From positions 1 through 25,098 of the IMG/VR virus record IMGVR_UViG_3300021962_000600: DNA of 25,098 nucleotides, one strand, 5' to 3'. Within the stretch, counting starts at the first letter, position 1. Each line of letters opens with the position of its first letter. The notes beneath the pieces were generated by a model. The model ran no database searches. It saw nothing but the letters and a program-made list of their open reading frames with translations, and was not told where the DNA came from. The stretch is from a virus. Below are positions 1 to 22,500 of this stretch, in pieces. The translations under genes and the position numbers were made by a program.

Positions 1-161
1 ACGGCTACGGCAGCGGCAACGGCGACGGCAGAGGCTACGGCGACGGCTACGGCGACGGCAACGGCAACGGCTACGGCGACGGCAGAGGCAACGGCTACGG
101 CTACGGCTACGGCGACGGCGACGGCAACGGCAGAGGCAACGGCTACGGCTACGGCTACGGC
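1..161 (+). repeat. GGC-NNN hexanucleotide repeat tract
   Basis: The tract is built of 6-bp units of GGC followed by TAC, GAC, AAC, AGC or AGA. The variable codon mostly differs in its first base only, as NAC. It begins before the window, so its full length is unknown. Such tracts expand and contract easily by slippage or recombination. Confidence 0.85.
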
Positions 162-257
162 ACCGCACTCACCTCAACCGACGGCGACGGCTGCGTTATT
201 CACATACTGACAACCGCCACAACTGTGGCACAACAACCCGCCGCGACAGCGGCATAA
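3..257 (+). CDS. Gly-X dipeptide repeat protein, 5' partial (cut by window edge)
   Basis: An open frame enters from the left edge and stops with TAA at 255-257. Up to about position 161 every odd codon is GGC (Gly) and the alternate codon is TAC, GAC, AAC, AGC or AGA, giving a Gly-Tyr/Asp/Asn/Ser/Arg dipeptide repeat. A short non-repeat tail rich in Thr and Ala follows (ending VAQQPAATAA). The stop lies just before the Shine-Dalgarno sequence of the next gene, as expected for a coding frame. Glycine-rich proteins of this type occur in phages next to homologues of the following gene, but I know of no function. Caution: the low-complexity repeat leaves all three plus frames open (Thr-Ala repeats to 210; an Arg-rich frame running into the next gene), so the choice of frame rests on composition and on stop position. 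Confidence 0.5.
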   Translation, partial: GYGSGNGDGRGYGDGYGDGNGNGYGDGRGNGYGYGYGDGDGNGRGNGYGYGYGTALTSTDGDGCVIHILTTATTVAQQPAATAA

Positions 258-1658: not shown

Positions 1659-2744
1659 ATGCAAATGTACAACCTCAACCTGCAGCAAGCCGCTGACCTC
1701 GTTCTGGCGTCACGATTCGGACGCACCGCAGTGCTGCTGCAAGGCCACATGGGCTGCGGTAAAACATCCATAGGCAAGACACTGGCAGCAGCGCTGCCCA
1801 CTCACACGCTGTGCTACTTCGACTGCACAACCAAGTCCCTTGGGGACGTCATGGTGCCCAACATCAAGGATATGCACGGCAACGACTTCGTGCGCTTTGC
1901 GCCGAATGAAGAGTTCGGTGTGCATTTGAACAAGCCCGTGATCCTGAATATCGACGAGTACGGCAAGGCCGACCCCAGTACCAAGAACGCGCTGCTGCGT
2001 GTCATGCAGGAGTTTCAGGTGGGGCCGTATCCGCTGCCCGAGGGCTCGATTGTGTTTGCCACGACCAACCTCGGTGCCGAGGGTGTCGGCGATCTGCTGC
2101 CACCGCACGCTCGCAACCGCATCACCACGGTGACACTGCGTAAACCCACGGCCATGGAGTTCATCGAGTGGGGTATCTCCAACGGCATCGACCACGCCAT
2201 ACTCGGCTGGGTCAAGGACAACCCGCACTGCATGCAGTCATTCGAGGAAGTCAAAGACCCGGAGGAGAACCCGTACATCTATCACCCGCGCTCCACCCGC
2301 GCCGCGTTCGTCACGCCACGTTCACTGGAGAAGGCGTCCAACTGGCTGAAGCACCGCCGCTCACTGGATAACACAACGCTGACAGCAGCACTGATAGGCA
2401 CACTGGGCGCGCAAGCAGCGATGGACATGGCCGCGTTCATCGAGATGGCAGACAAGCTGCCGACGCTCGACTCGATCAAGAAGTCCCCTGACACGGCACT
2501 TGTGCCGGACAACGTGGCCGCAGTGTGTATGGTGGTGTACCGCGTGCTGGGCTGCATTGACAAGAGCTGGGTGGAGGCATGGCACACCTACCTGCAGCGA
2601 CTGCCCAACGAGGCGCAAGCCCTGTTCGTCAACGGCGTACGCTCTGACAAGTACAACAACGAGCGACGCATCGCCGTGATGAACGCTCCGTCATTCACTC
2701 AGTGGGTACACAAGTTCAGCTATCTGTTCGGAGGGGATCAGTAA
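1659..2744 (+). CDS. MoxR/CobS-type AAA+ ATPase
   Basis: 361 aa. Walker A GHMGCGKT at residues 29-36, Walker B VILNIDEYGKA near 94-104, sensor 1 FATTN near 130-134, and an arginine-finger-like HARNRI just after it. This is the MoxR-branch AAA+ layout, with a helical C-terminal half lacking recognisable motifs. MoxR ATPases form rings that act with VWA-domain partners in remodelling or metal insertion (RavA-ViaA, CobS-CobT, NorQ-NorD). The stop overlaps the start of the VWA gene (TAATG), so the two are translationally coupled and probably interact. The phage target of this machine is unknown. Start: ATG with CTAGGAG upstream at 1645-1651; it follows a palindrome and a hairpin that may modulate its expression. 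Confidence 0.85.
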   Translation: MQMYNLNLQQAADLVLASRFGRTAVLLQGHMGCGKTSIGKTLAAALPTHTLCYFDCTTKSLGDVMVPNIKDMHGNDFVRFAPNEEFGVHLNKPVILNIDEYGKADPSTKNALLRVMQEFQVGPYPLPEGSIVFATTNLGAEGVGDLLPPHARNRITTVTLRKPTAMEFIEWGISNGIDHAILGWVKDNPHCMQSFEEVKDPEENPYIYHPRSTRAAFVTPRSLEKASNWLKHRRSLDNTTLTAALIGTLGAQAAMDMAAFIEMADKLPTLDSIKKSPDTALVPDNVAAVCMVVYRVLGCIDKSWVEAWHTYLQRLPNEAQALFVNGVRSDKYNNERRIAVMNAPSFTQWVHKFSYLFGGDQ

Positions 2745-3904
2745 TGTTCAACACCAAGGTGAGCGAAGAGCAGCGACTGGAGAAGGCCATGTGCAACCTC
2801 ATGGCCGAGCCGTATCTGATGGCGCTGTGCCCGGTGATGATGCTCGGCAAACGCACGATAGATGACAAGACGCCCACGGCCTGCACAGACGGGATCAACG
2901 AGAAGTACGGTCGCAAGTTCGTCGCCGCGTGTCCCGACAAACCCCTGCGCGGTGTACTGCTGCACGAGCTGGGGCACAAGATGTTCCGACACGTCACGAC
3001 ATGGCAGCACCTGTGGAAGCGCAACCCTCGCAAGGCCAACGTCGCAGCCGATTACGTTGTGAACCTGTGGGTGCAGAGCCTGATCGACAGCGGCGTCAAC
3101 GCATCCATGGACTGGCCGCACCCCGCCGTCTGCCTGCTCGACGACAAGTACAAGGGCATGAGTGTGCAGCAGGTGTTTGATCTACTGCCAGATGACGGCG
3201 ACGAAGGCGGTGCTGACGACCACGACTGGGAAGCTGCGCAGCAGATGACAGATGACGAAGTGCAGGAGCTGGCCGAGCAGATTGACTCCGCGCTGCGCCA
3301 AGGCGCACTTGCTGCACAGAAGGCGGGTAATGGCACCCAGCTGGACTTAGGCGAGCTGCTGACCCCGAGGGTTGACTGGCGCGCCGCGCTGCGGGAGTTC
3401 ATCAGCACAACTTGCGCCGGCAACGATTACGCCACATGGTCTCGCCCCAACCGCAGGTTCATCGGCTCAGGGGTGTATATGCCCAGCGGGGTGAGTGAGC
3501 AGGTGGGTGAGATTGTGGTGGGTATCGACACCTCCGGCAGTATCGACGCCGCCGCGCTGCGTGAGTTCTTGTCAGAGGTGGCGGGTATCTGCGAGCAGGT
3601 CAAGCCTAGCCGCCTGCGCCTGCTGTACTGGGACACTGACGTGCAGGGTGAGGAAGTGTACGACCTGACCTCATTGCCTACGCTCGCCAGTTCAACAAAG
3701 CCTGTCGGTGGTGGAGGCACCAGCGCCGCGTGCGTGCCAGACTATCTGCGCGAGAAGAACATCAAGCCGCAGGCGGTGGTGATGCTGACTGATGGGTATG
3801 TGTATTCGTGGGGTCAGTGGGACGTGCCGTTGCTGTGGTGTGTGATTGGGTCTAAACAAGTTCCGCCCGTCGGGCGCGTGGTGTACGCAGGAGCAGGTCT
3901 ATGA
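2744..3904 (+). CDS. VWA-domain protein with HExxH metallopeptidase-like N-terminal domain
   Basis: 386 aa. The N-terminal half carries HELGH at residues 74-78 inside a helix, the zinc-binding signature of DUF2201-type metallopeptidase-like domains. An acidic linker (about 147-175, rich in Asp/Glu) follows. The C-terminal half is a VWA fold with the MIDAS signature DTSGS at 262-266, GGGGT at 322-326 and VMLTDG at 346-351. The layout matches the phage/bacterial family found beside MoxR ATPases and resembles CobT/ViaA-like partners. Inferred role: a metal-dependent effector or adaptor of the AAA+ ring encoded just upstream; whether the HELGH is proteolytic is not shown by the sequence. The ATG at 2744 overlaps the upstream stop; an earlier in-frame start at 2702 would overlap the ATPase gene and is unlikely. 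Confidence 0.85.
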   Translation: MFNTKVSEEQRLEKAMCNLMAEPYLMALCPVMMLGKRTIDDKTPTACTDGINEKYGRKFVAACPDKPLRGVLLHELGHKMFRHVTTWQHLWKRNPRKANVAADYVVNLWVQSLIDSGVNASMDWPHPAVCLLDDKYKGMSVQQVFDLLPDDGDEGGADDHDWEAAQQMTDDEVQELAEQIDSALRQGALAAQKAGNGTQLDLGELLTPRVDWRAALREFISTTCAGNDYATWSRPNRRFIGSGVYMPSGVSEQVGEIVVGIDTSGSIDAAALREFLSEVAGICEQVKPSRLRLLYWDTDVQGEEVYDLTSLPTLASSTKPVGGGGTSAACVPDYLREKNIKPQAVVMLTDGYVYSWGQWDVPLLWCVIGSKQVPPVGRVVYAGAGL

Positions 3905-4152
3905 AGAACGATGTAATCCGAGTGGAGTTCAGGCCAGATCATCGGTGGCAGATAGAAGTCAGCGCCTTTGAGCTCGACCCGGAGCAGTTTGGGCTGCGCA
4001 GCTGGTACACGTCAGTTGACACAATGCCTAAATGGATACAAGATAAGTTAATAAAGCTACAAATAATGCAGACCCCTCCGCCGGTTATCGACATTGCTGG
4101 AGTTGGTAAACGGATAGGAAACAACGTGTTCTGGGTGTACCCAGACGAGTAA
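3901..4152 (+). CDS. Small phage protein of unknown function
   Basis: 83 aa; the ATG overlaps the VWA stop codon (ATGA), implying translational coupling. The central segment WYTSVDTMPKWIQDKLIKL is amphipathic and the end (GVGKRIGNNVFWVYPDE) reads as a beta strand. I recognise the general pattern (MPxWIQxKLxxL ... GVGxRIxxxVFWVY) from uncharacterised small proteins of tailed phages; no function can be assigned. It travels with the MoxR-VWA block but may simply be a passenger. Confidence 0.7.
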   Translation: MKNDVIRVEFRPDHRWQIEVSAFELDPEQFGLRSWYTSVDTMPKWIQDKLIKLQIMQTPPPVIDIAGVGKRIGNNVFWVYPDE

Positions 4153-4167
4153 CTTACGGAGCATAAG

Positions 4168-4446
4168 ATGCGGTACAAACCATGCTTAAGTTGTTCGGCG
4201 TTATTTTTTTACTACGAAGGGGAAGAGTGGAAAACACAGTGCCTGCGGTGCTACCTGCAGAAGAGGCAGAAACAAGCGGACAGCAAACCAACGCAGAACG
4301 GAACGGACATACCCGATGATATTTTGAAAAAGCTGATAATCCTGTGCCACCCTGACAAACACGGGAACAGCGAGATGAGCAACGCTGTAACTGTTTGGCT
4401 GCTGAGCAAAAAGCAAACCCGCGCCGGTAAGCGCGGCTACAAATAA
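4168..4446 (+). CDS. Zinc-ribbon and J-domain-like small protein
   Basis: 92 aa. Two CxxC pairs (C6/C9 and C25/C28) suggest a small zinc ribbon. The C-terminal half holds LIILCHPDKHGNSE (residues 56-69), whose HPDKH at 61-65 matches the signature loop of J-domains, which stimulate Hsp70 (DnaK) ATPase. The segment is shorter than a full J-domain, with one helix after the HPD motif and a basic tail. Similar mini-proteins with an HPDKH motif occur in other phages. Possible roles are recruiting host DnaK or binding nucleic acid; both are inference. ATG with GGAG at 4157-4160. Confidence 0.65.
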   Translation: MRYKPCLSCSALFFYYEGEEWKTQCLRCYLQKRQKQADSKPTQNGTDIPDDILKKLIILCHPDKHGNSEMSNAVTVWLLSKKQTRAGKRGYK

Positions 4447-4468
4447 CTACTGTTATCGAGGCACCGCC

Positions 4469-4756
4469 ATGGCGATGACGCCAGAGAAGAAAGTCAAACA
4501 GCGCGTCGTCGCGCAACTCAAAACGATAGGCGCGTATTACTTCTACCCAGTGACGGCGGGGTATGGCACCTCGGGGGTGCCCGACGTAGTGTGCTGTCAT
4601 CAGGGCCGATTCATTGGCATCGAGTGTAAGGCAGGTAAAGGCAAGACCACGGCCCTGCAAGAGAAGAACCTCAACGACATTCGAGACGCAGGGGGTGTGG
4701 CGCTCGTGATCAACGAGACAAACGTCGATCAACTGCTGGAATTACTAAAATCTTAG
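4469..4756 (+). CDS. VRR-NUC domain nuclease
   Basis: 95 aa, essentially a stand-alone VRR-NUC domain of the PD-(D/E)XK superfamily. Key residues: SGVPD ending in D39, then FIGIECKAGKGKTT with E52 and K54, then Q64; together these give the D...ExK...Q active-site pattern. A lysine-rich helix precedes (residues 5-18). Stand-alone VRR-NUC proteins are common in phages near replication genes and are thought to cut branched or flapped DNA (compare the FAN1 nuclease domain). The start at 4469 places ATG in CCATGG after a weak GAGG at 4458-4461; a second in-frame ATG lies two codons downstream. Its stop codon TAG (4754-4756) lies inside the third copy of the 18-bp palindrome. Confidence 0.88.
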   Translation: MAMTPEKKVKQRVVAQLKTIGAYYFYPVTAGYGTSGVPDVVCCHQGRFIGIECKAGKGKTTALQEKNLNDIRDAGGVALVINETNVDQLLELLKS

Positions 4757-4759
4757 TAA
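4742..4759. promoter_or_regulatory. 18-bp palindrome, copy 3
   Basis: TTACTAAAATCTTAGTAA: perfect 7-bp arms. It overlaps the last codons and the stop of the VRR-NUC gene and opens the 223-bp gap before the HTH gene at 4980. Confidence 0.7.
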
Positions 4760-4979
4760 AGAAAGCGTTTGCACTCCCAGCCGGAGGTGGAGCAAAACAC
4801 CGGCAGCGCAAGGAGTCAGCGGTCTGTGTCACCACGCTCCCCGCCACGTAGAGACGACACACTGGTTGCCCCGTCGGGAACAACATCTGGTGCTATCGTG
4901 GATACGTGCTCTGATTGCGTACCGGTGCCGTCAGCGGTTTATCTGGCGGACACAAATTTACTACTAAGGAGCAACAACC
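4757..4979. other. 223-bp intergenic region, possible weak promoter
   Basis: The longest gene-free stretch in the window. It starts with palindrome copy 3 and ends with AAGGAG (4967-4972) for the HTH gene. A weak promoter candidate is TTGCGT (4915-4920), 17 bp, TTTATC (4938-4943). An open frame at 4769-5044 crosses it but overlaps the HTH gene and has a low-complexity Ser/Arg composition, so I do not call it. No tRNA-like fold or terminator was seen. Confidence 0.35.
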
Positions 4980-5246
4980 ATGAAAGCGCAAAAACGACTA
5001 GAAGCAGAAGACGTACGACACGAAGTATTCCGCCAGTTGCTTGACTTGCTCTGGGGCTATAACGGTGAAGCACTAAAAGAATTGGCCGATGAGGCCGGCA
5101 TCCACTGGACGACGATCTACGCATGGCAGAGAGGCGCGACATACGCCCCTCGCATCGACAAGATCGCTGCCGTCGCCACGGTGCTCGGTTATACCCTGAC
5201 GCTGACGAAGAGTTCGTCCACACCAGCGCTGCGGAGAATCAAATGA
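4980..5246 (+). CDS. Helix-turn-helix (XRE-like) DNA-binding protein
   Basis: 88 aa. Residues about 32-62 (LKELADEAGIHWTTIYAWQR, then PRIDKIAAVATVLG) form an XRE/lambda-repressor-like HTH with the typical run of a helix, a turn at AGI, a recognition helix HWTTIYAWQ and a following helix ending in LGYTL. Small proteins of this type act as phage transcription regulators. It could read the palindromes at 606, 1594 and 4742, one of which sits upstream of its own gene, but that is inference from proximity. ATG after a good AAGGAG site. The stop overlaps the next start (ATGA), so the two are coupled. Confidence 0.8.
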   Translation: MKAQKRLEAEDVRHEVFRQLLDLLWGYNGEALKELADEAGIHWTTIYAWQRGATYAPRIDKIAAVATVLGYTLTLTKSSSTPALRRIK

Positions 5247-5500
5247 GTGGTATTCCAGAAGGTGCAGTAGACGCAGTGACCGATCTGTTCGACAAGGTGC
5301 TGCGCACCATCGACGAGTGGGAAGAAAAGAGCCCCGAGTCAGAGGAGTTCAAGCAGGACGTGGTGATCAACACCATGACCAATGTACTGGCCGTGATGTC
5401 GATGGAGTACGGCTACGAGCCTGAATTTATTACCCACTCACTGCTGTCCACCCTACGCGTCAACGGGGCGTTCGACGACGATCACGCAACGGTACATTAA
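5243..5500 (+). CDS. Small acidic protein of unknown function
   Basis: 85 aa starting at the ATG that overlaps the HTH stop codon; an upstream in-frame start at 5123 would bury most of the HTH gene and is rejected. The protein is strongly acidic (DEWEEKSPESEEFKQD at about residues 25-40) and predicted mostly helical, with no cysteine motif, membrane segment or recognisable domain. Its coupling to the HTH gene makes a co-regulator or antirepressor conceivable, but nothing in the sequence demonstrates this. Confidence 0.65.
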   Translation: MSGIPEGAVDAVTDLFDKVLRTIDEWEEKSPESEEFKQDVVINTMTNVLAVMSMEYGYEPEFITHSLLSTLRVNGAFDDDHATVH

Positions 5501-5526
5501 CAACCAACCACCCAAGGAGAAACACC

Positions 5527-5829
5527 ATGAACCATCTGATGGACAACATAGGCCACACCCAGCTCGGCGCAGAAAAGCCAATGCCTGCTGTAGAAATCCC
5601 TCTGCAGATGCAGGTAATTGGAGGCGAGCTAAACCGGCTTTACGATGTGATCGATACCTTGCACAAGCGTCTTGATTCCGTGTGTTCCGCCGAACAGGAT
5701 GTGAACGAAATCGACTCCAAGCCTCCCACTCCCCAAACGGATCACGGTAGACAGCTACACCTCTTTGCACAGGACATACGCCTTGCCACGCATCGAATTG
5801 GGATTTTGCTCCGGAGACTTGAGCTGTGA
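5527..5829 (+). CDS. Small helical phage protein of unknown function
   Basis: 100 aa, ATG with AAGGAGA at 5514-5520. The central EIPLQMQVIGGELNRLYDVIDTLHKRLDSV (residues 24 to about 53) is a long amphipathic heptad-like helix suggesting a small coiled coil. A polar linker and a C-terminal helix (LATHRIGILLRRLEL) follow. I recognise similar unannotated proteins in tailed phages, without a function. It lies directly before the endolysin and overlaps its GTG start, so it could be a lysis accessory, but it has no transmembrane segment and is not an obvious holin or spanin. Confidence 0.65.
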   Translation: MNHLMDNIGHTQLGAEKPMPAVEIPLQMQVIGGELNRLYDVIDTLHKRLDSVCSAEQDVNEIDSKPPTPQTDHGRQLHLFAQDIRLATHRIGILLRRLEL

Positions 5830-6248
5830 TCCTCTACGAGATCATGTGCATCGCGATGGCGGTGTACTGGGAAGCGCGGGGTGAGCCGATTGAAGGGCAG
5901 TTCGCAGTGGCCGAGGTTGTGGTGAACCGCATGCACGACCCGCGCTACCCGGCCGACGCCTGCAGTGTGGTGTACGAGGCCGACTACTACCCATGGGCAC
6001 CCGAGGTGCCGGTGCGGCACCAGTGCCAGTTCAGCTTCTTTTGCGACGGCAAGTCGGACGAGCCGACAGACTACGTGCCTTGGAAAGTAGCGCAGCTGAT
6101 CGCAGCTGCCGTGTACGAAGGACGAGCCGCTCCCGTGATCGGAGAAGCGACACACTACCACGCGACCCGCGTGCGCCCTGACTGGGCAGCGACAGGCGAC
6201 GTGGTGGCGAAAGTAAATGACCATGTGTTCTATGAAGGAGTGAGGTGA
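5826..6248 (+). CDS. SleB-type cell wall hydrolase (probable endolysin)
   Basis: 140 aa, Hydrolase_2/SleB family. Diagnostic elements: AVYWEARGEPIEGQFAVAEV with the putative catalytic Glu16, VVVNRM (32-36 region), the CQFSFFCDG block near the middle, an AAxxVYEGRAAPVIG segment, and the C-terminal THYHATRVRPDWA and HVFY. SleB-like enzymes are lytic transglycosylases or amidases that cleave peptidoglycan; in phages without another lysin gene they serve as endolysin. No signal peptide is present, so release would need a holin, and none is recognisable in the window. GTG start at 5826 overlapping the previous stop. This length is that of a minimal catalytic domain without a cell-wall-binding module. 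Confidence 0.9.
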   Translation: MILYEIMCIAMAVYWEARGEPIEGQFAVAEVVVNRMHDPRYPADACSVVYEADYYPWAPEVPVRHQCQFSFFCDGKSDEPTDYVPWKVAQLIAAAVYEGRAAPVIGEATHYHATRVRPDWAATGDVVAKVNDHVFYEGVR

Positions 6249-6249
6249 A

Positions 6250-6747
6250 ATGAAACATCTATTCGCAAAGTGGTCTCGCCGTGGTGAAGTGGAACGTACG
6301 ATCTACGAAGTGATCGGCAACGATGAATTCACGCGTGCCGAGGTTGTCCGGCTGGTGCTGGAGCGCGGCGGGGTGCTGGCAAAACTGCAGACCAAGTCCC
6401 GCCGTGCAGCGGTGGATGACGCGCTGACGGAAATGCGTAACTCCGGCCGACTTGAGATAGCCAAGCCTGCGTCCACCAGAGGCGAAGCCCATATCTACCG
6501 CTGCCCCGTGGTGCCAGATAAGGACGCCGATGGTCCGCAGCCTGACAGACCCGCAGCCACCATGACGATGCGTGAAGAGGTCATCGTACGGCTGGCGTGT
6601 GCGATGGCGAGCAACGCGAGGTATTTTGCAGAGGGGTGCCCAAAGGGTAGGCTGGTCAGGGATTACGTAAACGAATGCGCAATTGATCAGGCGGACGCAC
6701 TGATAGCCGCGATGGGGGTGACCGGTGATCACAATCACGCTAAATAA
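6250..6747 (+). CDS. Protein of unknown function, possible winged-helix fold
   Basis: 165 aa; ATG with AAGGAGTGAGGTGAA just upstream. The N-terminal ~80 residues (ERTIYEVIGNDEFTRAEVVRLVL..., DDALTEMRNSGRLEIAKP..., AHIYRCP) read as three helices followed by a beta wing, which suggests a winged-helix DNA-binding fold; this is a weak structural guess. A proline-rich linker (about 88-100) leads to a second helical region ending HNHAK. The last 23 bases overlap the downstream Ala-repeat gene, and the overlapping sequence belongs to the segment duplicated further downstream. No close family recognised. Confidence 0.7.
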   Translation: MKHLFAKWSRRGEVERTIYEVIGNDEFTRAEVVRLVLERGGVLAKLQTKSRRAAVDDALTEMRNSGRLEIAKPASTRGEAHIYRCPVVPDKDADGPQPDRPAATMTMREEVIVRLACAMASNARYFAEGCPKGRLVRDYVNECAIDQADALIAAMGVTGDHNHAK

Positions 6748-7282
6748 GATCAGGGCGCACGGCCCGTGTGAATCAGGTTGGAAAAAGCTGCTGAAAGCCA
6801 AAGCCGGCGTTGGTATGGACGAAGAGTTCCCGTTGTCTGATGTACTCGACAGCAACGGACTAGACGACGCGCTGTGGTGTCTGCGATGCCTACCGGAGCA
6901 TGACAAGACGTGGAGGTTGTTCGCGGTGTGGTGTGCTCGGCGGGTGCAGCATCTGCTGACTGATAAGCGCAGCCTTGACGCGCTGGACGTAGCAGAGCGG
7001 CACGCGCGCGGGCTTGCGACGGACGAAGAACTCGCCGCAGCATGGGACGCAGCATGGAACGCAGCATTAGGCGTAGCATTTGGCGCAGAAGGGGCCGCAG
7101 CACGGGCCGCAGCATGGGCAGCAGCACGGGCCGCAGACGCAGCATGGGACGCACAGGACGCAGCACAAGACGCAGCACGGGAAGCAGCTTGGGGCGCAGC
7201 ATGGGCCGCAGCAGAGGCCGCAGCACGGGGCGCGCAGGAGGAAAAGTTTCGGGAGGTGATCAATGATCACAATAACGCTTAA
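6725..7282 (+). CDS. Alanine tetrapeptide-repeat protein, copy 1
   Basis: 185 aa, GTG start at 6725. The N-terminal domain (about residues 1-105) is non-repetitive: MITITLNKIRAHGPCESGW, then SNGLDDALWCLRCLPEHDK, RLFAVWCARRVQHLL and LDVAERHARGLATDEELAAA. It is followed by a run of AAxx tetrapeptides with Trp, Arg, Asp or Gly in the variable places (about 106-165), then QEEKFREVINDHNNA. The DNA beneath is a 12-bp minisatellite around GCAGCATGGGAC. Proteins with this head followed by Ala-rich repeats are widespread in phages and proteobacteria; the function is unknown. The repeat predicts a long Ala-faced helix. It overlaps copy 2 by 20 nt. The tail motif of the upstream gene (DHNHAK) resembles this tail, which suggests that the duplication unit included the gene junction. 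Confidence 0.75.
   Translation: MITITLNKIRAHGPCESGWKKLLKAKAGVGMDEEFPLSDVLDSNGLDDALWCLRCLPEHDKTWRLFAVWCARRVQHLLTDKRSLDALDVAERHARGLATDEELAAAWDAAWNAALGVAFGAEGAAARAAAWAAARAADAAWDAQDAAQDAAREAAWGAAWAAAEAAARGAQEEKFREVINDHNNA
7034..7231 (+). repeat. 12-bp minisatellite in Ala-repeat gene copy 1
   Basis: Degenerate tandem 12-bp units around GCAGCATGGGAC or GCAGCACGGGCC, encoding AAWD/AARA-type tetrapeptides. The repeats also keep several antisense and off-frame ORFs open; these are artefacts of the composition. Confidence 0.8.
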
Positions 7283-7865
7283 TAAAATCCGGGCGCACGG
7301 CCCGTGCGAATCAGGTTGGAAAACGTTGCTGAAAGCCAAAGCCGGCATCGGAATGGATGAAGAATTTCCGTTATCTCATGTACTCGACAGCAACGGACTG
7401 GACGACGCGCTTTGGTGTCTGCGGTGCCTGCCTGAGCATGACAAGGTGTGGAGGCTGTTTGCGGTGTGGTGCGCTCGGCGGGTGCAGCATCTGATCACGG
7501 ATCAACGCAGCATCAACGCACTGGACGTAGCAGAGCGGCACGCGCGCGGGCTTGCGACGGACGAAGAACTCGCCGCAGCACGGGGCGCAGCACGGGCCGC
7601 ACGGGACGCAGCAGGGTACGCAGCATGGGACGCAGGGGCCGCAGCAGGGGGCGCAGCATGGGACGCAGCATGGGGCGCAGCATGGGCCGCAGCATTGGGC
7701 GCAGCATTGGCCGGAGCAGGGGCCGCAGCAGGGGCCGCACGGGTCGCAGCAGGGGACGCACTTGACGTAGCAGAGCGGCACGCGCACGGGCTTGCGACGG
7801 ACAAAGAACTCGCCGCAGCAAAGGCCGCGCAGGAGGAAAAGTTGAGGGAGATGATAAATGACTGA
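7263..7865 (+). CDS. Alanine tetrapeptide-repeat protein, copy 2
   Basis: 200 aa, ATG with GGGAGGTGAT upstream. The first ~105 residues are nearly identical to copy 1, with many nucleotide differences silent, so both copies appear to be under selection. The Ala-rich tail is longer and differently arranged (AARG, AARD, AAGY, GAAAG units). At residues 166-187 the segment ALDVAERHAHGLATDKELAAA repeats residues 86-106 of the same protein, exactly 240 bp apart in the DNA, so a partial third copy of the head domain is fused in. It ends QEEKLREMIND, like copy 1. The stop overlaps the next start. Function unknown. Confidence 0.75.
   Translation: MITITLNKIRAHGPCESGWKTLLKAKAGIGMDEEFPLSHVLDSNGLDDALWCLRCLPEHDKVWRLFAVWCARRVQHLITDQRSINALDVAERHARGLATDEELAAARGAARAARDAAGYAAWDAGAAAGGAAWDAAWGAAWAAALGAALAGAGAAAGAARVAAGDALDVAERHAHGLATDKELAAAKAAQEEKLREMIND
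7572..7760 (+). repeat. 12-bp minisatellite in Ala-repeat gene copy 2
   Basis: Same 12-bp family as at 7034-7231 (GCAGCATGGGAC, GCAGCAGGGGCC and similar). It is bounded on both sides by the duplicated 63-bp segment encoding ALDVAERHA...ELAAA (7518-7580 and 7758-7820). Confidence 0.8.
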
Positions 7866-8106
7866 AGACCAAGCACACCAGAAACTCGCTGATATGGAGC
7901 GAGTCGGGCTGATAGTGAGTTACAACGTGACAATGACACGCGGCGATCACGCTACGCGGGTAGCAGCACAGAGTGTTGAGACGCTGATCGGGCATTTCTG
8001 TGCCGCAGTACGCGAGCACATGCACGGCTGCACCGACGATGGCCGCCAGCGACTGCTGGACTACTACAACCATGTGATCAAACAATATCCGGGAGGCGAG
8101 GAATGA
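7858..8106 (+). CDS. Small protein of unknown function
   Basis: 82 aa; ATG overlapping the copy 2 stop by 8 nt, with GAGGGAG at 7844-7850. Predicted helical, with two His/Cys-bearing stretches (IGHFCAAVREHMHGC, residues about 44-58) that do not form a standard zinc motif. No family recognised. It is part of a chain of coupled small genes running to 9117. Confidence 0.65.
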   Translation: MTEDQAHQKLADMERVGLIVSYNVTMTRGDHATRVAAQSVETLIGHFCAAVREHMHGCTDDGRQRLLDYYNHVIKQYPGGEE

Positions 8107-8417
8107 GTGACATTGAGACGATACGGGAGGCGCTGGAAGCCTACGTAAAAGTCGCTAAAGAACTGTACTGGGAAGGATGGAGCTCTGCGGACCGTCATGC
8201 AAAACTCGCACCAAAAGCCCTGCGCCTGTTCGACGAGCTGGCGGTGGCGGAGCCAATGATCGTTTGGCAAGAAGAACGCCCGCGGGTTGAGCTAACGCTG
8301 GAAGAGATCGAGAACATCATCAAATCCAACATCACCATCACCGACCCCAACCTGTACGAAGGTGTGTACGCTGTGGCAGTTGGTATAGAGCAAGCCATTA
8401 TGGAGAAGAACAAATGA
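8103..8417 (+). CDS. Small acidic protein of unknown function
   Basis: 104 aa; ATGA overlap with the preceding gene, Shine-Dalgarno GGGAGGCGAGG at 8091-8101. Two helical regions (IREALEAYVKVAKELYWEGW near the start; LTLEEIENIIKSN near residue 65) and an acidic overall charge. No cysteine motif or membrane segment. Not recognised. Confidence 0.65.
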   Translation: MSDIETIREALEAYVKVAKELYWEGWSSADRHAKLAPKALRLFDELAVAEPMIVWQEERPRVELTLEEIENIIKSNITITDPNLYEGVYAVAVGIEQAIMEKNK

Positions 8418-8785
8418 TGCCTGATTACTGCAAGAACGAAGGATGCTTGGAAGCCGAGTTCGTGGGGGAATACTGCTTGGACCACGCCCCGAGACAAGCG
8501 CCGGGTACCCCAAGCGCATCGCAAATCCTGACCACCGCCGCCGGGCACCTGCAAGAACGTGCCGCGACCTACGACCAGCCGCAAGGCGAGCGCAGCATCG
8601 GCAAGACCGTGAACATGTTCCGCGCACTCACCGGGATCAGTATGACCGAGGAGCAAGGCTGGCTGTTCATGGCGTGCCTGAAGATGGTAAGAGCGCAGCA
8701 AGGCGGGTATCGTGCGGACAGCTACGAGGATGGCTCGGCATATTTTGCGCTGGCTGGCGAGAGCGCAGCGAAGGAGCGAACATGA
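8414..8785 (+). CDS. DUF6378-like phage protein with N-terminal zinc-binding motif
   Basis: 123 aa. Residues 4-24 contain C6, C11, C21 and H24 (CKNEGC...GEYCLDH), a compact CCCH zinc-binding pattern typical of short phage zinc fingers. Residues about 35-117 match the DUF6378 type: ILTTAAGHLQERAATYD, GERSIGKTVNMFRALTG, EQGWLFMACLKMVRAQQG and ADSYEDGSAYFALAGE. DUF6378 domains are abundant in phages, often beside nucleotide-metabolism genes; no activity is known to me. The Glu/Asp-bearing helical pattern resembles MazG/dUTPase-like all-alpha hydrolases, but that comparison is speculative. ATGA overlaps link it on both sides. Confidence 0.75.
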   Translation: MMPDYCKNEGCLEAEFVGEYCLDHAPRQAPGTPSASQILTTAAGHLQERAATYDQPQGERSIGKTVNMFRALTGISMTEEQGWLFMACLKMVRAQQGGYRADSYEDGSAYFALAGESAAKERT

Positions 8786-9117
8786 CCAATAACGAGCGAG
8801 AAGAATACAGGCTTGCGGCTTTGGCTGCAGGATATGATTACAGGCACGTTGAAGGAGTAGGCCACGTTAGATGGATTCGGTCCGGGAAATCAGGGTTTTA
8901 TGGCGGATGGAGTCCCAAGACAGACAAGGCCGACAGCTTTGACTTGATGGCGGCTTGCAGAATGGATTTGTTTTTGAGCAGCGGCAGCGTTAGGGCATCT
9001 AATGGTGAATCGGTGTCAGGGATATATCAGTCAGACAAGCCTATTGATGAGCAAGCAATGGAAGTCATATTCATGAGGGCCGTAGCCAAGGGCCGCTCTA
9101 TTGAGGAGAGAAAATGA
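8782..9117 (+). CDS. Small phage protein, possible ABA-sandwich fold
   Basis: 111 aa from the ATG overlapping the previous stop; an in-frame start at 8443 would overlap the whole DUF6378 gene and is rejected. The pattern EEYRLAALAAGYDY, then WSPKTDKADSFDLMAACRMDLF, resembles the phage ABA-sandwich (DUF2591-like) group, in which WxPxxDxxD is followed by a helix. The resemblance is modest. The final EVIFMRAVAKGRS helix is typical of this group's ending. Codon choice looks slightly more A/T-rich than its neighbours. Function unknown. Confidence 0.65.
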   Translation: MTNNEREEYRLAALAAGYDYRHVEGVGHVRWIRSGKSGFYGGWSPKTDKADSFDLMAACRMDLFLSSGSVRASNGESVSGIYQSDKPIDEQAMEVIFMRAVAKGRSIEERK

Positions 9118-9551
9118 GATTCAAGAAACTTACCCCCGACGCGATCACCCCGACACGGGGCACGACACACGCAGCGGGGCTGGACCTGTACGCGTTACGC
9201 ACGACCCTCCTGCCGCCGAACGAACCAACCATGGTGCACACCGGCATTGCCGTTGAAATTCCAGAGGGCTACGTGGGGCTGTTGTTCGCCCGCTCAAGCA
9301 TGGGGCATTGCGGTGTGTCCATGACCAACGCGGTGGGGGTCATCGACGCCGACTATCGCGGGGAGATCATGCTCAGTCTGAGGTACACCAGCGGGGGATA
9401 CGGGCTTTACAACGTTTCTCACGGCATCGCAAAAGGTGAGCGCATCGGCCAGCTGGTAGTGGTTCCTGCCCCGCTGTTCGAGCTGGAGGAAGTAGAGGAG
9501 CTGTCAGAGACAGCGCGTGGAGAAGGCGGTTTCGGAAGCACTGGCAAATAA
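9114..9551 (+). CDS. dut: dUTP diphosphatase (dUTPase)
   Basis: 145 aa, full length for a trimeric dUTPase, which hydrolyses dUTP to dUMP and pyrophosphate to keep uracil out of DNA and supply dTMP synthesis. All five motifs are present: AGLDLYA (21-27), ARSSMGHCGV (59-68), GVIDADYRGEI (75-85, with the catalytic Asp), GERIGQLVV (108-116) and RGEGGFGSTG (135-144), the last being the flexible C-terminal arm with the nucleotide-stacking Phe. ATGA overlap with the preceding gene. Its position just ahead of the DNA polymerase is usual for phage nucleotide-metabolism genes. Confidence 0.97.
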   Translation: MRFKKLTPDAITPTRGTTHAAGLDLYALRTTLLPPNEPTMVHTGIAVEIPEGYVGLLFARSSMGHCGVSMTNAVGVIDADYRGEIMLSLRYTSGGYGLYNVSHGIAKGERIGQLVVVPAPLFELEEVEELSETARGEGGFGSTGK

Positions 9552-15249: not shown

Positions 15250-16257
15250 ATGAGCAACGTAACATTGTTTGAAGGCAAGAAATTCAAGCTGCCAGCCATG
15301 CCGGCAGGCTTTGAAGACAGCATCACTAAGACCATCGCAGGCGGTGGCAGCGGCGGCGCGGGTAACCGTCGAATCTCTATCAAGGGTAAGGCGTTTCGTC
15401 AGGTGGTGAACGGCGAAGAAGTCTACGTCAGTGAAGATCGCGCACTGGATGTAATTCTGGTGAACGCTGCGCCGGTGTCCCGTCAATACTACGAAGGGGC
15501 GTACGACCCCAAAGCACAAGCTATTCCTCCCACCTGCTGGTCTTCTGATACTCAGAAGCCAGACGCAGCTGTGCCGGAAGACCAGCGCCAGAGCGACAAG
15601 TGCATGACCTGCCCAAACAATATCAAGGGTTCCGGTCAAGGCGAGTCCCGTGCGTGCCGATTCTCCCAGCGCGTTGCAGTGCTGCTTGATGGTGAAGTTG
15701 AGAAGAAAGAGGTGTACCAGCTGCAGCTCCCGGCCACCAGCGTGTTCGGCGACGGCAAGGACGGCAAGATGGGCCTGCAGGCATACGGCAAGTTCTTGGC
15801 CGCAAACTCTGTGCACGCTATTTCCGTGGTCACCCGCATGAAGTTTGATGTTTCCAGCGAACAGCCTAAGCTGTCCTTCAGTGCGGTGCGCCCGTTGGAT
15901 CAAGAAGAGCTCGAAATCGCGCTGGAGATGCGTGACTCCAAGGAAGCCAAGGACGCTATCACGATGACTGTCGGTGCGTTTGACGGCGACAAAACCTCCG
16001 GGTCTTCCGCAAAGCCTGCGGCCAAAAAGGCTGCCCCGGTAGTTGAAGATGAGGAAGAAGCGCCTGCGCCGAAAGCCAAGAAGAAACCTGCCCCGGTAGT
16101 CGAGGAAGACGAAGACGAAGCGCCAGCACCGAAGAAGAAAGCTGCCCCGGTGGTTGAGGAAGACGACGAGCCGGTGGTGCGCAGCTCCAAGAAGCCCGCG
16201 CCAAAAGACGAACCCGTGGGTGAGCTCGACGACTTGCTGGGTGAGTGGGACGACTAA
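15250..16257 (+). CDS. Probable phage ssDNA-binding protein with zinc site and acidic tail
   Basis: 335 aa, ATG with GAGGATAG upstream. The core (residues ~40-245) is beta-rich and carries four cysteines C96, C118, C121 and C136 (TCWSSD ... KCMTCPNN ... ACRF), a likely structural zinc site. Residues ~250-325 are a low-complexity linker of Lys/Ala/Pro blocks alternating with Glu/Asp blocks, with APVVE repeated three times. The end, GELDDLLGEWDD, resembles the acidic C-terminal tips by which SSBs recruit partners. Related zinc-containing proteins precede the primase in many phages. ssDNA binding is inferred from context and architecture. A hairpin follows at 16287-16304, suggesting strong, partly terminated expression. 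Confidence 0.65.
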   Translation: MSNVTLFEGKKFKLPAMPAGFEDSITKTIAGGGSGGAGNRRISIKGKAFRQVVNGEEVYVSEDRALDVILVNAAPVSRQYYEGAYDPKAQAIPPTCWSSDTQKPDAAVPEDQRQSDKCMTCPNNIKGSGQGESRACRFSQRVAVLLDGEVEKKEVYQLQLPATSVFGDGKDGKMGLQAYGKFLAANSVHAISVVTRMKFDVSSEQPKLSFSAVRPLDQEELEIALEMRDSKEAKDAITMTVGAFDGDKTSGSSAKPAAKKAAPVVEDEEEAPAPKAKKKPAPVVEEDEDEAPAPKKKAAPVVEEDDEPVVRSSKKPAPKDEPVGELDDLLGEWDD

Positions 16258-19504: not shown

Positions 19505-22500
19505 TTAGAAGCCCCACGCGTCGGCTTCTTCCTCCCATCTACCTTCAAACCCCACACCGGGCAAACTACCCATTTTCATTCTGGCAGTGTTGCGATCCCG
19601 AGTTTCGATAGACTGTCTTAGGTCGGAGCTCTTAATTGTTTTTTGTGGGTACTCACGGTTGAACTCCACAATATCTTCCAGAGCGCTCAGGTATCCGGCA
19701 GAGTCTTTGGTGCGATAAGCGGTATATATTCTCTCGTACAGCCGATTACGCTTGTTCATGATGCTGTCTTCGTAACGATTCTGTCGAGTCGTGAAGTCCA
19801 TGCTGCGAGCGTAATCGGCCGGTGCGAACCCCAAAAACTGCGACAGCAGAGCGCCTGCACCAACATCATCAACCACAGGGTCCCCTCGCAGTGTGAGCGC
19901 ACCTTTAGACGCAAACCGTGCTGTTTTGAACATGTTAGACAGCGCCACCGGCATCAGACTTTCAACACCTCGGTCTATACGACCTTCTTGGATCAGCTCT
20001 ATACCGCGAACAAACCGGTTTATTGAACCAAATGTCGGTCCGCCAAACATCGCCACTCCCCAATCCCAAATGCTCGCGCCATCCGGCAAAGTGGTGTCCC
20101 TGATGAGCATGTTGGTGTACTCAATACGCGGACCGATGTTCATGTTGAGCGCCGCCGCGAACAACCCTTCAGTCGCCCCAGTGCCGATAGTTTTTCGCAT
20201 CAAGGTTTCTGCGTCATCTTCTTCGTCATCCGCAAAGGCATCATAGACCGCAAAGACCACGCCCATGAGAGGAAGTCCGCGCACCCCAGCAAGCGCAGCC
20301 GACATAGCGGACATCATTAACCACTGACTCCATGCGGCGCGTTTTAGTTTTTGAGCATCCGCGTCGTTGGGGTCTACGCCTCGGAACATAGTGCTGAGAA
20401 GTCTACCCTGCAAATAGTACTGCAGTGACGCGTACTGCTTATACATTCCAACAACAGACCATATCGGGTGCTGGGTGTATCCGGGCTTTGTGAGCGATGA
20501 AGACCCGCCATTTAGCATAAGGCTGTCCCTGACAGCTTCTTGCGCGACACTTTGGCGAACCTCTGGGGTTATAGCTTTTCCTTCTTTTTTCAGTTTTGCC
20601 AGTTCCGCTTTATACTGCGCGGTTACTGTCATCTCGCGTTTGAAGCGCTCGGTGCTGTGCAGCAGAACACCCATGTAGGCGTTTGCATTAGACAGCAGCC
20701 CACTTTCGCCAACTTCGACCGATTCTTTTTGCGTCGAAAAACGCTGCGAATGCCCCGTGAGCAGCAGCTCGTCTCTCAGTTCTTTAAGCTCCGCAGTTTC
20801 TGGGTCAAGGTTTGGGTCGTTATAATCGTGGTTGAGGATCGACGGGAAAGCTCGGGTGGTTTCAAAGTCCCTGCCGCTGATCTTCATTTCGTCAAGAAGC
20901 GCTTTTATTTCCGGGCTATTAAGCTCGGCGTCAGTTAAATCTTTTGTAATAAGCGTTTCAATTTTTGACGTGAAGCCGCCGCCGAGTATCGTTTTTGCCG
21001 CATCGGCCATTGCTTTCAGTGCCCCTACCCGACCATATTTCTTCTGCAGATGCGGATAGGTGATCATCGCAAGAGACAGCGAGTCTACGATAGGGGAGGA
21101 CACGTTACCCCCAAGAGTCCATGCGAATGTCAGGGTCTTGGTGACGTTAGACCAATTCGGCAACGTCGGGTTAATTGCAAACTTGGTGCGGCTTGTAAGC
21201 TCGCGCATCAACGGAGAAAACTTTTCCGGGCTATCCATCAGTTTATACTCCGCTTGGAGTTTTCTAAGTCCTTCACGAATTTGCGCCCCGTGCTTCAAGT
21301 TTTCCAACTGGCGCCCCGTTCCTATGACGCTTTGTACGAACCGATCAAATGGGTCCTTTGTGTACCCCGGAGTGTCTTTTCTAGCCACGATGCGTTTTGC
21401 AATGGAACGCGAAGGCGAAAGCGCCGCCGCCGCCTCCAGCACCGCACGTTGTGTATCTTTGTTGACATTGCCGTTCTGCATAATCCCTATGAGCTCGCCG
21501 ATGAAACTATTTGACGGCGCGTTGCCCAGCATTTCTTCTATCTGCCGATCCATTCTGTCCGCGGTGCTTATGGTTCCGGGAACAACCAAAGGGTCACCTT
21601 CAAGCTGGTCCATGCGCAGGTCTCGTTCCAACTTACTTTTGAAAATTTCGTAAGCAAGCTCCGGGGTGCCTTTTTCTTTTGTGAAAAAGCTCAGCTTGTA
21701 ATCACCGTCAGGACGGGTATTGGGCTCGTACCCGTCAATACCTTTGGTTTGCAGCTCCTGCATAAACTTGTTTGTAATGGAGGTTGTTAACTGCTTGTCA
21801 CCGGCCATAGAGGCGACGCCTGCGTTTATTGCCTCAACTATTTGTTTGAACTGATTGTCGTACACTTGGCGTCGCACACGATAAAGCTGTTGCCCCTTAG
21901 CGCCCACCTTTTGCCACAGCCCGTCTTTGCCTTTGAGCTTTTTATATGCCTTGAGTTTGTCAGGGTCTGTTGCGTATCGAGACTCCGGATAACGAAGATC
22001 AACGCGAGCTTCATTTCCTTGGTTTACGAGCTCTGTGAAAGCCTCCAATTCTTCTGCTGTGGCGTCGTTAACGTACGCTTTCTGCCGGTCGATAGTGGCT
22101 GCGGCTGACTGAACAAACACTTCTCTGGCGCCTTCACCTTTTTGCATGGTGTTGTGGAACTGGGCCATTGCGCGTTTGAAGCCAGCTGACAAGTCCTTGC
22201 TATGCCGCACCAAATCTTCGATGGAGTTCAGATGCAGAGAGTAATACAACGCCGTTTTCCCAGAGCGCGTTGCTCGATCCATACCGTCGTACAGCGCACG
22301 GGTCGCTTTTGCGCTTTTTGGGTTTACCGCCAGCTTTTTCACAGTGTCGTCCACGACGCTCAAGAACAACTGGTTGCCGTCTATAGTGTTAATTGTGTCG
22401 ATGGCTTTGTTGGCCTTGGCGACTCGTGCAGCGTCCTCCTTTGCCCCCATACGCTTTGTTAAATCAATGAGCTCTTCCAAGGTACCTGACTCGGACGCTG

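Follow-up and report, generated by a model that had tools for sequence, protein, structure and literature searches.

Here we present an analysis of two adjacent genes, A and B, in a 25,098-base virus record taken at its whole length (IMGVR_UViG_3300021962_000600, hereafter the window), each encoding a predicted, mostly helical head domain followed by an alanine-rich tail that is translated from a 12-bp minisatellite. The two genes are firmly established as a real tandem duplication within the phage family phrog_18326. Members of this family stand in direct arrays in several other lineages, with copy numbers that differ between close relatives, and unequal recombination is very likely the mechanism behind these changes, judging by the marks left in the sequences. 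We propose, tentatively, that the product is a phage inhibitor of the Imm5-like kind and that the minisatellite in its tail promotes this recombination.

The gene pair is a genuine duplication

The original prediction placed at 6725-7865 a tandem pair of genes with a nearly identical head, a 12-bp minisatellite inside the second copy and a third, partial head copy at exactly 240 bp, and all of these features were recovered. A 300-nt direct repeat (6714-7013 vs 7252-7551) has 87% DNA identity, the proteins are 92% identical over residues 1-103 (tblastn), and the two genes overlap by 20 bp. Alanine is encoded by GCA at 28 of 36 positions in the tail of A and 30 of 41 in that of B, unlike in the heads, where the counts are 3 of 13 and 4 of 13. 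A 74-nt repeat occurs three times, at 6977, 7515 (95%) and 7755 (91%), with spacings of 538 and then exactly 240. Its last occurrence sets a partial head into the tail of B, where 13 of 14 residues match, the maximum among shuffled tails being 8 (one shuffle for each of 156 tails). The left junction of this partial head is ACGCA, which is common to minisatellite and head; the segment would stem either from a third gene since deleted or from copying inside B itself.

It had also been argued that the duplicated unit includes the gene junction, because each upstream open reading frame (ORF) ends in similar 'DHN-type' residues. We rejected this argument as a reading-frame effect, since these residues come from the opening of the following gene (gtgatcacaatcacgc / atgatcacaataacgc) in a different frame. 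The end of A and the end of B are 75-87% alike over 12 to 60 bp, while the DNA upstream of the start of A resembles the A/B junction at 67% over 12 bp and at 33-45% over 20 to 60 bp. The duplicated unit is thus the gene itself, and the preceding ORF lies outside it.

An assembly artefact has in its favour that short reads assemble repeats poorly. Against it, 37 of the first 330 positions are different in A and B, and further differences run throughout the tails, too many for an assembler looping through one gene to yield the pair. Moreover, both copies recur in a second record, possibly from a related sample (IMGVR_UViG_3300021963_002023, locus L004), which equals window 4225-9544 at 100% over 5,320 bp and shows one difference from the window's first 1,185 bases. 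The single-copy state that would have spoken against the duplication was therefore not what this comparison of records, as distinct from long reads, returned. On these two grounds the artefact was rejected for A and B, and its chances as an explanation are next to nil.

Direct arrays recur in the family and change in copy number

In a head-profile search, 257 of 267 loci matched. Once 18 loci (the window's own, re-fetched regions and those of cellular Imm5_like proteins) and a further 8 that lacked a full-length head had been set aside, 241 loci with 274 full heads remained, which formed 122 lineages at 90% head identity. More than one head was present in nine of these lineages, as a direct array of two to five copies in eight and as a dispersed pair in one (Table 1), and in 113 there was one full head; a comparison of copy number in related phages had been proposed with the original prediction. 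The loci are the best matches to three related queries, two of them from or aligned with tandem genes, so the figure of 8 in 122 should not be read as an unbiased rate. Where 900 bp of upstream and 1,200 bp of downstream DNA were available, 8 of 95 lineages had more than one head. With one locus per lineage, an adjacent homologous pair was found for 11 of 90 family ORFs and for none of 781 other ORFs of at least 100 aa, by a crude ORF caller that missed part of the family genes in favour of antisense frames. Counting more loosely, over plus-strand ORFs of at least 60 aa, gave 17 of 132 for the family and six pairs, or at most 12 of 2013 ORFs, for the others, and some of these non-family pairs may be real duplications.

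Copy number differs at the same locus in four lineages, which do not include the window's own, where both records carry two copies. There are three copies in L087 and five in L084, which differ at 2 of 4,470 aligned bases; two in L202 and three in L209, at 93-96% identity in the alignment; and two in L028 and one in L024, with flanks about 94% identical. The least clean case is that of L133 with two copies and L177 with one, which are 98% alike over 2,012 bp upstream, L177 having about 1 kb more before its copy.

Several loci carry what look like the products of recombination. The copies of L084 run in the order c1 c2 c3 c2 c3, and its first copy 3, compared with L087, is c3-like over the last 760 bases save two c1-type diagnostic sites near the end. 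The switch to c1 bases follows an 80-bp zone that is identical in c1 and c3, the pattern expected after unequal crossing-over of c3 with c1. In L254 (4550-4726), a deletion remnant of a second copy consists of the first ~89 head bases joined to the gene end at CGCAAGC. Among 156 proteins, three have partial head ends within their tails, namely window B as L004 (13 of 14), L019 (12) and L143 copy 3 (10), as against the shuffled maximum of 8. Upstream of the five-copy array, L084 has a further direct repeat at 1390-1989, of ~245 bp and 84%.

In a tree of 139 heads, built from few columns and with a bootstrap that had not settled, the copies of one lineage's array cluster in 8 of 9 cases, counted against other arrays; the arrays thus had separate origins or were homogenised each on its own. 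L143 copy 1 forms a pair with L167, a different virus.

We envisage that the similar tails and heads of neighbouring copies would pair out of register during recombination. Such pairing could lead to gain or loss of whole genes, reshuffled tails and short conversion tracts, and occasionally to fusions, of which the partial head in the tail of B would be an example. The claim of active amplification by unequal recombination accordingly has to be divided: at the level of the family it is borne out by the eight arrays, the four copy-number differences and the L084 pattern, while for the A/B pair as a whole, at a dS of 0.41, the word active is not supported.

The duplication is not recent, and the heads are under purifying selection

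Over the 107 codons of the A and B heads there are 24.5 synonymous and 11.5 non-synonymous changes (dS 0.408, dN 0.049, dN/dS 0.12; synonymous and non-synonymous divergence, respectively). The remark that the changes are often silent is therefore correct, and equal divergence of the two kinds, which would have told against the duplication as first described, was not found. From the dS of 0.41 it follows that the duplication is not recent, and from the dN/dS of 0.12 that the heads are under purifying selection, which contradicts an arms race if this is taken to mean that the head evolves under positive selection. Among 15 head pairs from nine lineages (one dispersed), dN/dS was defined in 14 and ranged from 0.06 to 0.31; one pair is saturated in dS, and the ratio of the L133 pair rests on two changes.

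The end of the head contains a 60-bp tract that is identical in A and B, with a permutation P of 0.014 and a codon-level P of 0.015. In the relatives (113 head rows, duplicates kept), codon conservation is 0.32 in this stretch vs 0.43 in the rest of the head. Being identical in A and B yet less conserved elsewhere, the tract suggests a short later exchange between the two genes, at modest significance.

A probable link to Imm5-like immunity proteins

Kinship of the phage family with Imm5-like proteins is likely on the evidence of divergent members. L224, at 39.1 bits, and the two copies of L098, at 27.0 and 26.9 bits, exceed the 25-bit cut-off of PF21805 (Imm5_like), and A1, the profile of the main family, matches L098 with E=7e-39 over 165 columns. 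None of the seven other divergent proteins passes; three match weakly (14.3-19.7 bits) and four are unmatched. The segment common to the phage and PF21805/PF14423 groups runs into the Ala-rich C-terminal part. In the phage proteins, by contrast, the matched segment is preceded by ~60 extra N-terminal residues and the tail is long and encoded by a minisatellite; the window proteins fall below detection, PF14423 scores stay under its cut-off, and no toxin was recognised nearby among the proteins scanned by Pfam. When viral sequences were scanned with an Imm5_like protein of cellular origin, there were 13 pattern matches and no confirmed relatives; Imm5_like is present in 8 of 192 genomes of one phylum. 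In L112 (1-521, minus strand), from a genome of that phylum, an unrelated N-terminal region precedes an Imm5_like-type segment with SAAW repeats, and the ORF leaves the contig end. In L224 (3001-3555), the Ala-rich tail switches part-way to an LRGLRG repeat, as if the minisatellite frame had been shifted by an indel.

The AlphaFold model of A has a confident, mostly helical head (block predicted local distance difference test 90-97, residues 1-110) and a tail modelled for the most part as a single helix of 58 residues, whose start is of low confidence (residues 111-140). The model of L098 copy 2 is likewise mostly helical (predicted template modelling score 0.80). A fold search of the PDB put 7jtu_B first for both models. 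VIA superposed them on this chain with Z 5.5 and a root-mean-square deviation (rmsd) of 4.3 over 114 residues, and with Z 6.0 and rmsd 4.1 over 121; the next chains scored 2.9 and 4.5. The VIA lists held no other convincing fold, an absence that proves nothing. In BFVD, a set of viral models, an Imm-5-like phage protein ranked second (E=7e-5). PDB sequence searches with A1, A4, A2 (the cellular Imm5_like set) and L103 returned only non-significant, unrelated chains.

According to the available text of its report, 7JTU is the complex of the deaminase toxin SsdA with its immunity protein SsdAI, and SsdAI is built of alpha helices only and has residues that reach into the toxin active site (PMC7901873). 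Chain B, with 193 residues, would be SsdAI by its length and its helical match. The likeness to this Pseudomonas syringae protein consists in helicity and in the top PDB rank for two models; it is statistically weak, at 9% and 7% identity, and has no counterpart in a sequence match. SsdA is termed a DYW-like deaminase in accessible text (PMC11789416), and the consulted part of another source lists Imm5 alongside DYW deaminase toxins and describes polyimmunity operons that are mostly without toxin genes (PMC3482391).

The bridging homology and the weak structural likeness together make inhibitor function a credible possibility. The protein might serve as a host-takeover or counter-defence factor that attaches to a toxin-like enzyme and inhibits it, in the way SsdAI acts on a DNA deaminase toxin, and extra copies might raise its dosage or diversify the tail surface; selection for dosage or for tail diversity is possible. 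A bolder version, which we consider quite unlikely, is that the arrays are phage polyimmunity loci, in which the conserved head anchors the fold and the helical tail, altered in length and reshuffled time and again by recombination, offers a variable binding surface, or more dosage, against deaminase-type or other toxins of the host. If true, it would mean that a phage inhibitor has been diversified without a reverse transcriptase, by a coding minisatellite and recombination only.

Weighing the explanations

A number of results weigh against the combined reading of an inhibitor with a recombining tail. On the side of the protein, A and B have no Pfam Imm5 match at E<=1 and do not reach the 25-bit cut-off of PF21805; among the visible Pfam matches of 52 relatives no family exceeds its cut-off, the best being a weak Imm5_like match in one of them (E=0.0077). 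When A1 was aligned by hhalign to A2 (five sequences), the result was not significant (probability 2.7%, E=0.017, 44 columns), so that the Imm5 claim rests on bridging members. The Foldseek matches to 7jtu_B are not significant either (E=2.9 and 7.2), Z values of 5.5-6.0 can be noise for helical proteins, and the Pfam scan of window proteins (part of the ORFs, both flanking ORFs included) recognised no toxin domain. On the side of the arrays, 114 of 122 lineages have no direct array in the fetched DNA, which is often short. In the tree, the one head of L177 is nested within the pair of L133, and the five-copy array of L084 could be a chimeric assembly, its extra two copies arising from an assembler looping at the 80-bp common stretch.

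The arrays might instead be a mutational by-product, a GC-rich 12-bp minisatellite being prone to duplication and deletion, with the resulting copies tolerated since the phage has space for them and neither dosage nor diversity selected. The widely variable tail length (79.7 +- 21.8 aa, range 0-135, n=149), the existence of partial fusions and a remnant, the prevalence of the single full head and the duplication of a second repeat-coding gene in the same phage all fit such an origin. It sits less well with the duplicated heads, which hold a dN/dS of 0.06-0.31 even at dS above 1 and so have been maintained as functional proteins over long times, and we judge it somewhat unlikely. It is unlikely, too, that A and B are specialised paralogues, old and stable duplicates that act as a pair (for example as a hetero-oligomer) or divide their targets, as their dS, retained frames and overlapping ends, the same two-copy state in the second record, and the identical heads of L202 copy 2 and L209 copy 3, whose other copies differ, might suggest; copy number varies among close relatives in four other lineages, and the 60-bp tract suggests exchange between A and B.

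The protein could also be no inhibitor at all and have a structural or DNA-related role, as a coiled rod, a virion part or a replication accessory. This would suit the helix modelled for most of A's tail, the 'tail fiber protein' annotation of a homologue in Curvibacter phage P26059A and the proximity of family genes to recombination or replication genes in several phages. The Imm5_like matches of divergent members point elsewhere, none of the 52 relatives has an above-cut-off match to a family of described function, and we doubt that such a role is the answer. The reading that we favour remains that of a phage accessory gene present as two tandem paralogues, A and B, with a conserved, putatively Imm5-like helical head and a long, predicted Ala-rich helix.

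Tandem amplification in phages has precedents. In the available text of the reports, phage T4 amplifies tifA under toxIN selection (PMC9391042), phage loci are amplified in a SegB-driven manner (PMC13096335), and the amplified genes counter bacterial defence. As described there, those segments are recent and laboratory-selected, whereas here single genes with a repeat-coded tail stand at dS 0.41; the recent, near-identical segments that mark amplification of the tifA type are not what the window contains. Accessible text on Xanthomonas oryzae phages describes domain duplication in tail fibres, with short G-rich repeats flanking duplicated coding modules that vary between related phages (PMC2248197). 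The duplications in that account concern domains of one host-range-linked tail-fibre gene, and those considered here whole genes without virion assignment. Among the matches listed by our searches of the literature, chiefly non-subscription, no title or abstract opening dealt with tandem arrays or Imm5-like function of this family.

The findings thus tie a family of unassigned function, through bridging members, to Imm5-like immunity families and make it a testable candidate for toxin inhibition. Repeated arrays that vary between close relatives are a candidate for natural phage gene amplification outside the laboratory. In addition, they provide a coding minisatellite whose likely exchange products can be read: an identical tract, a partial fusion, a deletion remnant and a hybrid copy.

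Distribution and build of the family

A and B cover positions 2-191 of the 203 of the phrog_18326 profile, which also matched 52 of 52 aligned relatives at E<=1e-5; the entry (PHROGs v4) gives an unknown function and carries no tandem information. PADLOC and NCBIfam each gave one weak match, in one of the 52 members. In IMG/VR, a relative is encoded in at least 415 of 432 pattern-matching stretches, as compared with only 15 of 357 in a collection of 84,980 species genomes, and there were matches in 22 of 50,697 phage records and 1 of 72,556 plasmids. This is mainly a phage gene. In the Pseudomonas phages AF and PPpW-3, one head each was found. Across 149 unique full proteins the head measures 107.1 +- 1.9 aa, partly by construction since it is defined by the profile, and the tail is 46% alanine.

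The head module is present in other architectures as well, by sequence match: in Vibrio phage SUMAE (L273) it stands towards the end of a 606-aa protein, and in Vibrio phage K45 (L274) a 375-aa protein begins with it and has an additional C-terminal region. The tail-fibre annotation in Curvibacter phage P26059A (L275, 3001-3588) is perhaps due to the Ala-rich repeats. In Erwinia phage phiEt88 (L270), the family ORF at 3501-4019 is annotated from an internal start only (3732-4022), and a coding sequence on the opposite strand is annotated across the head.

The locus and its neighbours

The features of the gene pair and the multi-copy loci are collected in Table 1.

Table 1. Elements of the A/B gene pair in the window (positions in the window) and loci of relatives with more than one head
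Feature	Position	Strand	Description
ORF A, first gene copy	6725-7282	+	185 aa, GTG start; phrog_18326 E=6e-61
ORF B, second gene copy	7263-7865	+	200 aa, ATG start; phrog_18326 E=1e-59
Head domain of A	6725-7045	+	~107 aa, predicted mostly helical
Head domain of B	7263-7583	+	vs A: dS 0.408, dN 0.049
12-bp minisatellite coding Ala-rich tail of A	7036-7233	+	17.2 copies; self-match 0.71 at lag 12
12-bp minisatellite coding Ala-rich tail of B	7574-7760	+	16.3 copies; self-match 0.78 at lag 12
Third, partial copy of head 3' end inside B	7755-7828	+	91%; last ~22 head codons
60-bp tract identical in A and B, first copy	6983-7042	+	permutation P=0.014
60-bp tract identical in A and B, second copy	7521-7580	+	permutation P=0.014
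Conserved gene end of A (AQEEKFREVI), into start of B	7217-7266	+	86% to 7812-7861
Conserved gene end of B (AQEEKLREMI), into start of next gene	7812-7861	+	86% to 7217-7266
Window/L004			2 copies; direct array
L017 group			3 copies, 5 in L033/L084; direct array
L028			2 copies, plus third starting 3.9 kb after second; direct array
L202/L209			2 copies in L202, 3 in L209; direct array
L133			2 copies; direct array
L143			4 copies; direct array
L098			2 copies, Pseudodesulfovibrio metagenome-assembled genome; direct array
L210			2 copies; direct array
L214, L215	3001 and 4999 (of the locus)		two family genes 1.4 kb apart; dispersed

The window encodes a DNA polymerase, a helicase, a primase/helicase, a dUTPase and a PD-(D/E)XK nuclease, and a Cell Wall Hydrolase gene and an ORF without assignment lie upstream of A. 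Neighbouring genes of the 122 representative loci were clustered in a search for partner genes. The largest group, at 15 loci, is a YqaJ-type recombination protein and another, at 7 loci, an ERF protein, each by the Pfam match of one member. A group at 8 loci is presumably similar to single-stranded DNA-binding protein (SSB), the SSB with a Pfam match being that of L098, and a group at 3 loci, one member of which was scanned without a Pfam match, we take to be RecT-like. These four groups, the last two under our assumed labels, jointly cover 23 of 122 loci. Near the family gene, phage AF has ERF, exonuclease and NinB, and phiEt88 an exonuclease and a RecT-like gene. No toxin-like partner was seen among the 18 largest neighbour groups.

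A second tandem duplication lies at the start of the window (1-257) and in L086 (1-330), and concerns a Gly/Tyr-rich repeat gene with a 6/12-bp minisatellite. Its copies are 88% identical over 201 bp and have like ends (GYGYGTALTSTDGDGCVIHILTT); the first copy is found in L086, beyond the limits of the window. At 1659-3904, beside the phage replication genes, a gene for an AAA ATPase precedes one of the DUF2201 metallopeptidase/VWA-like type. At 16031-16166, a 54-bp repeat in 2.5 copies encodes an acidic Ala-Pro-Lys linker of a 335-aa protein without a Pfam match, and an ORF of 1858 aa at 19505-25081, with no Pfam match at E<=0.001, occupies the minus strand, opposite to the replication genes.

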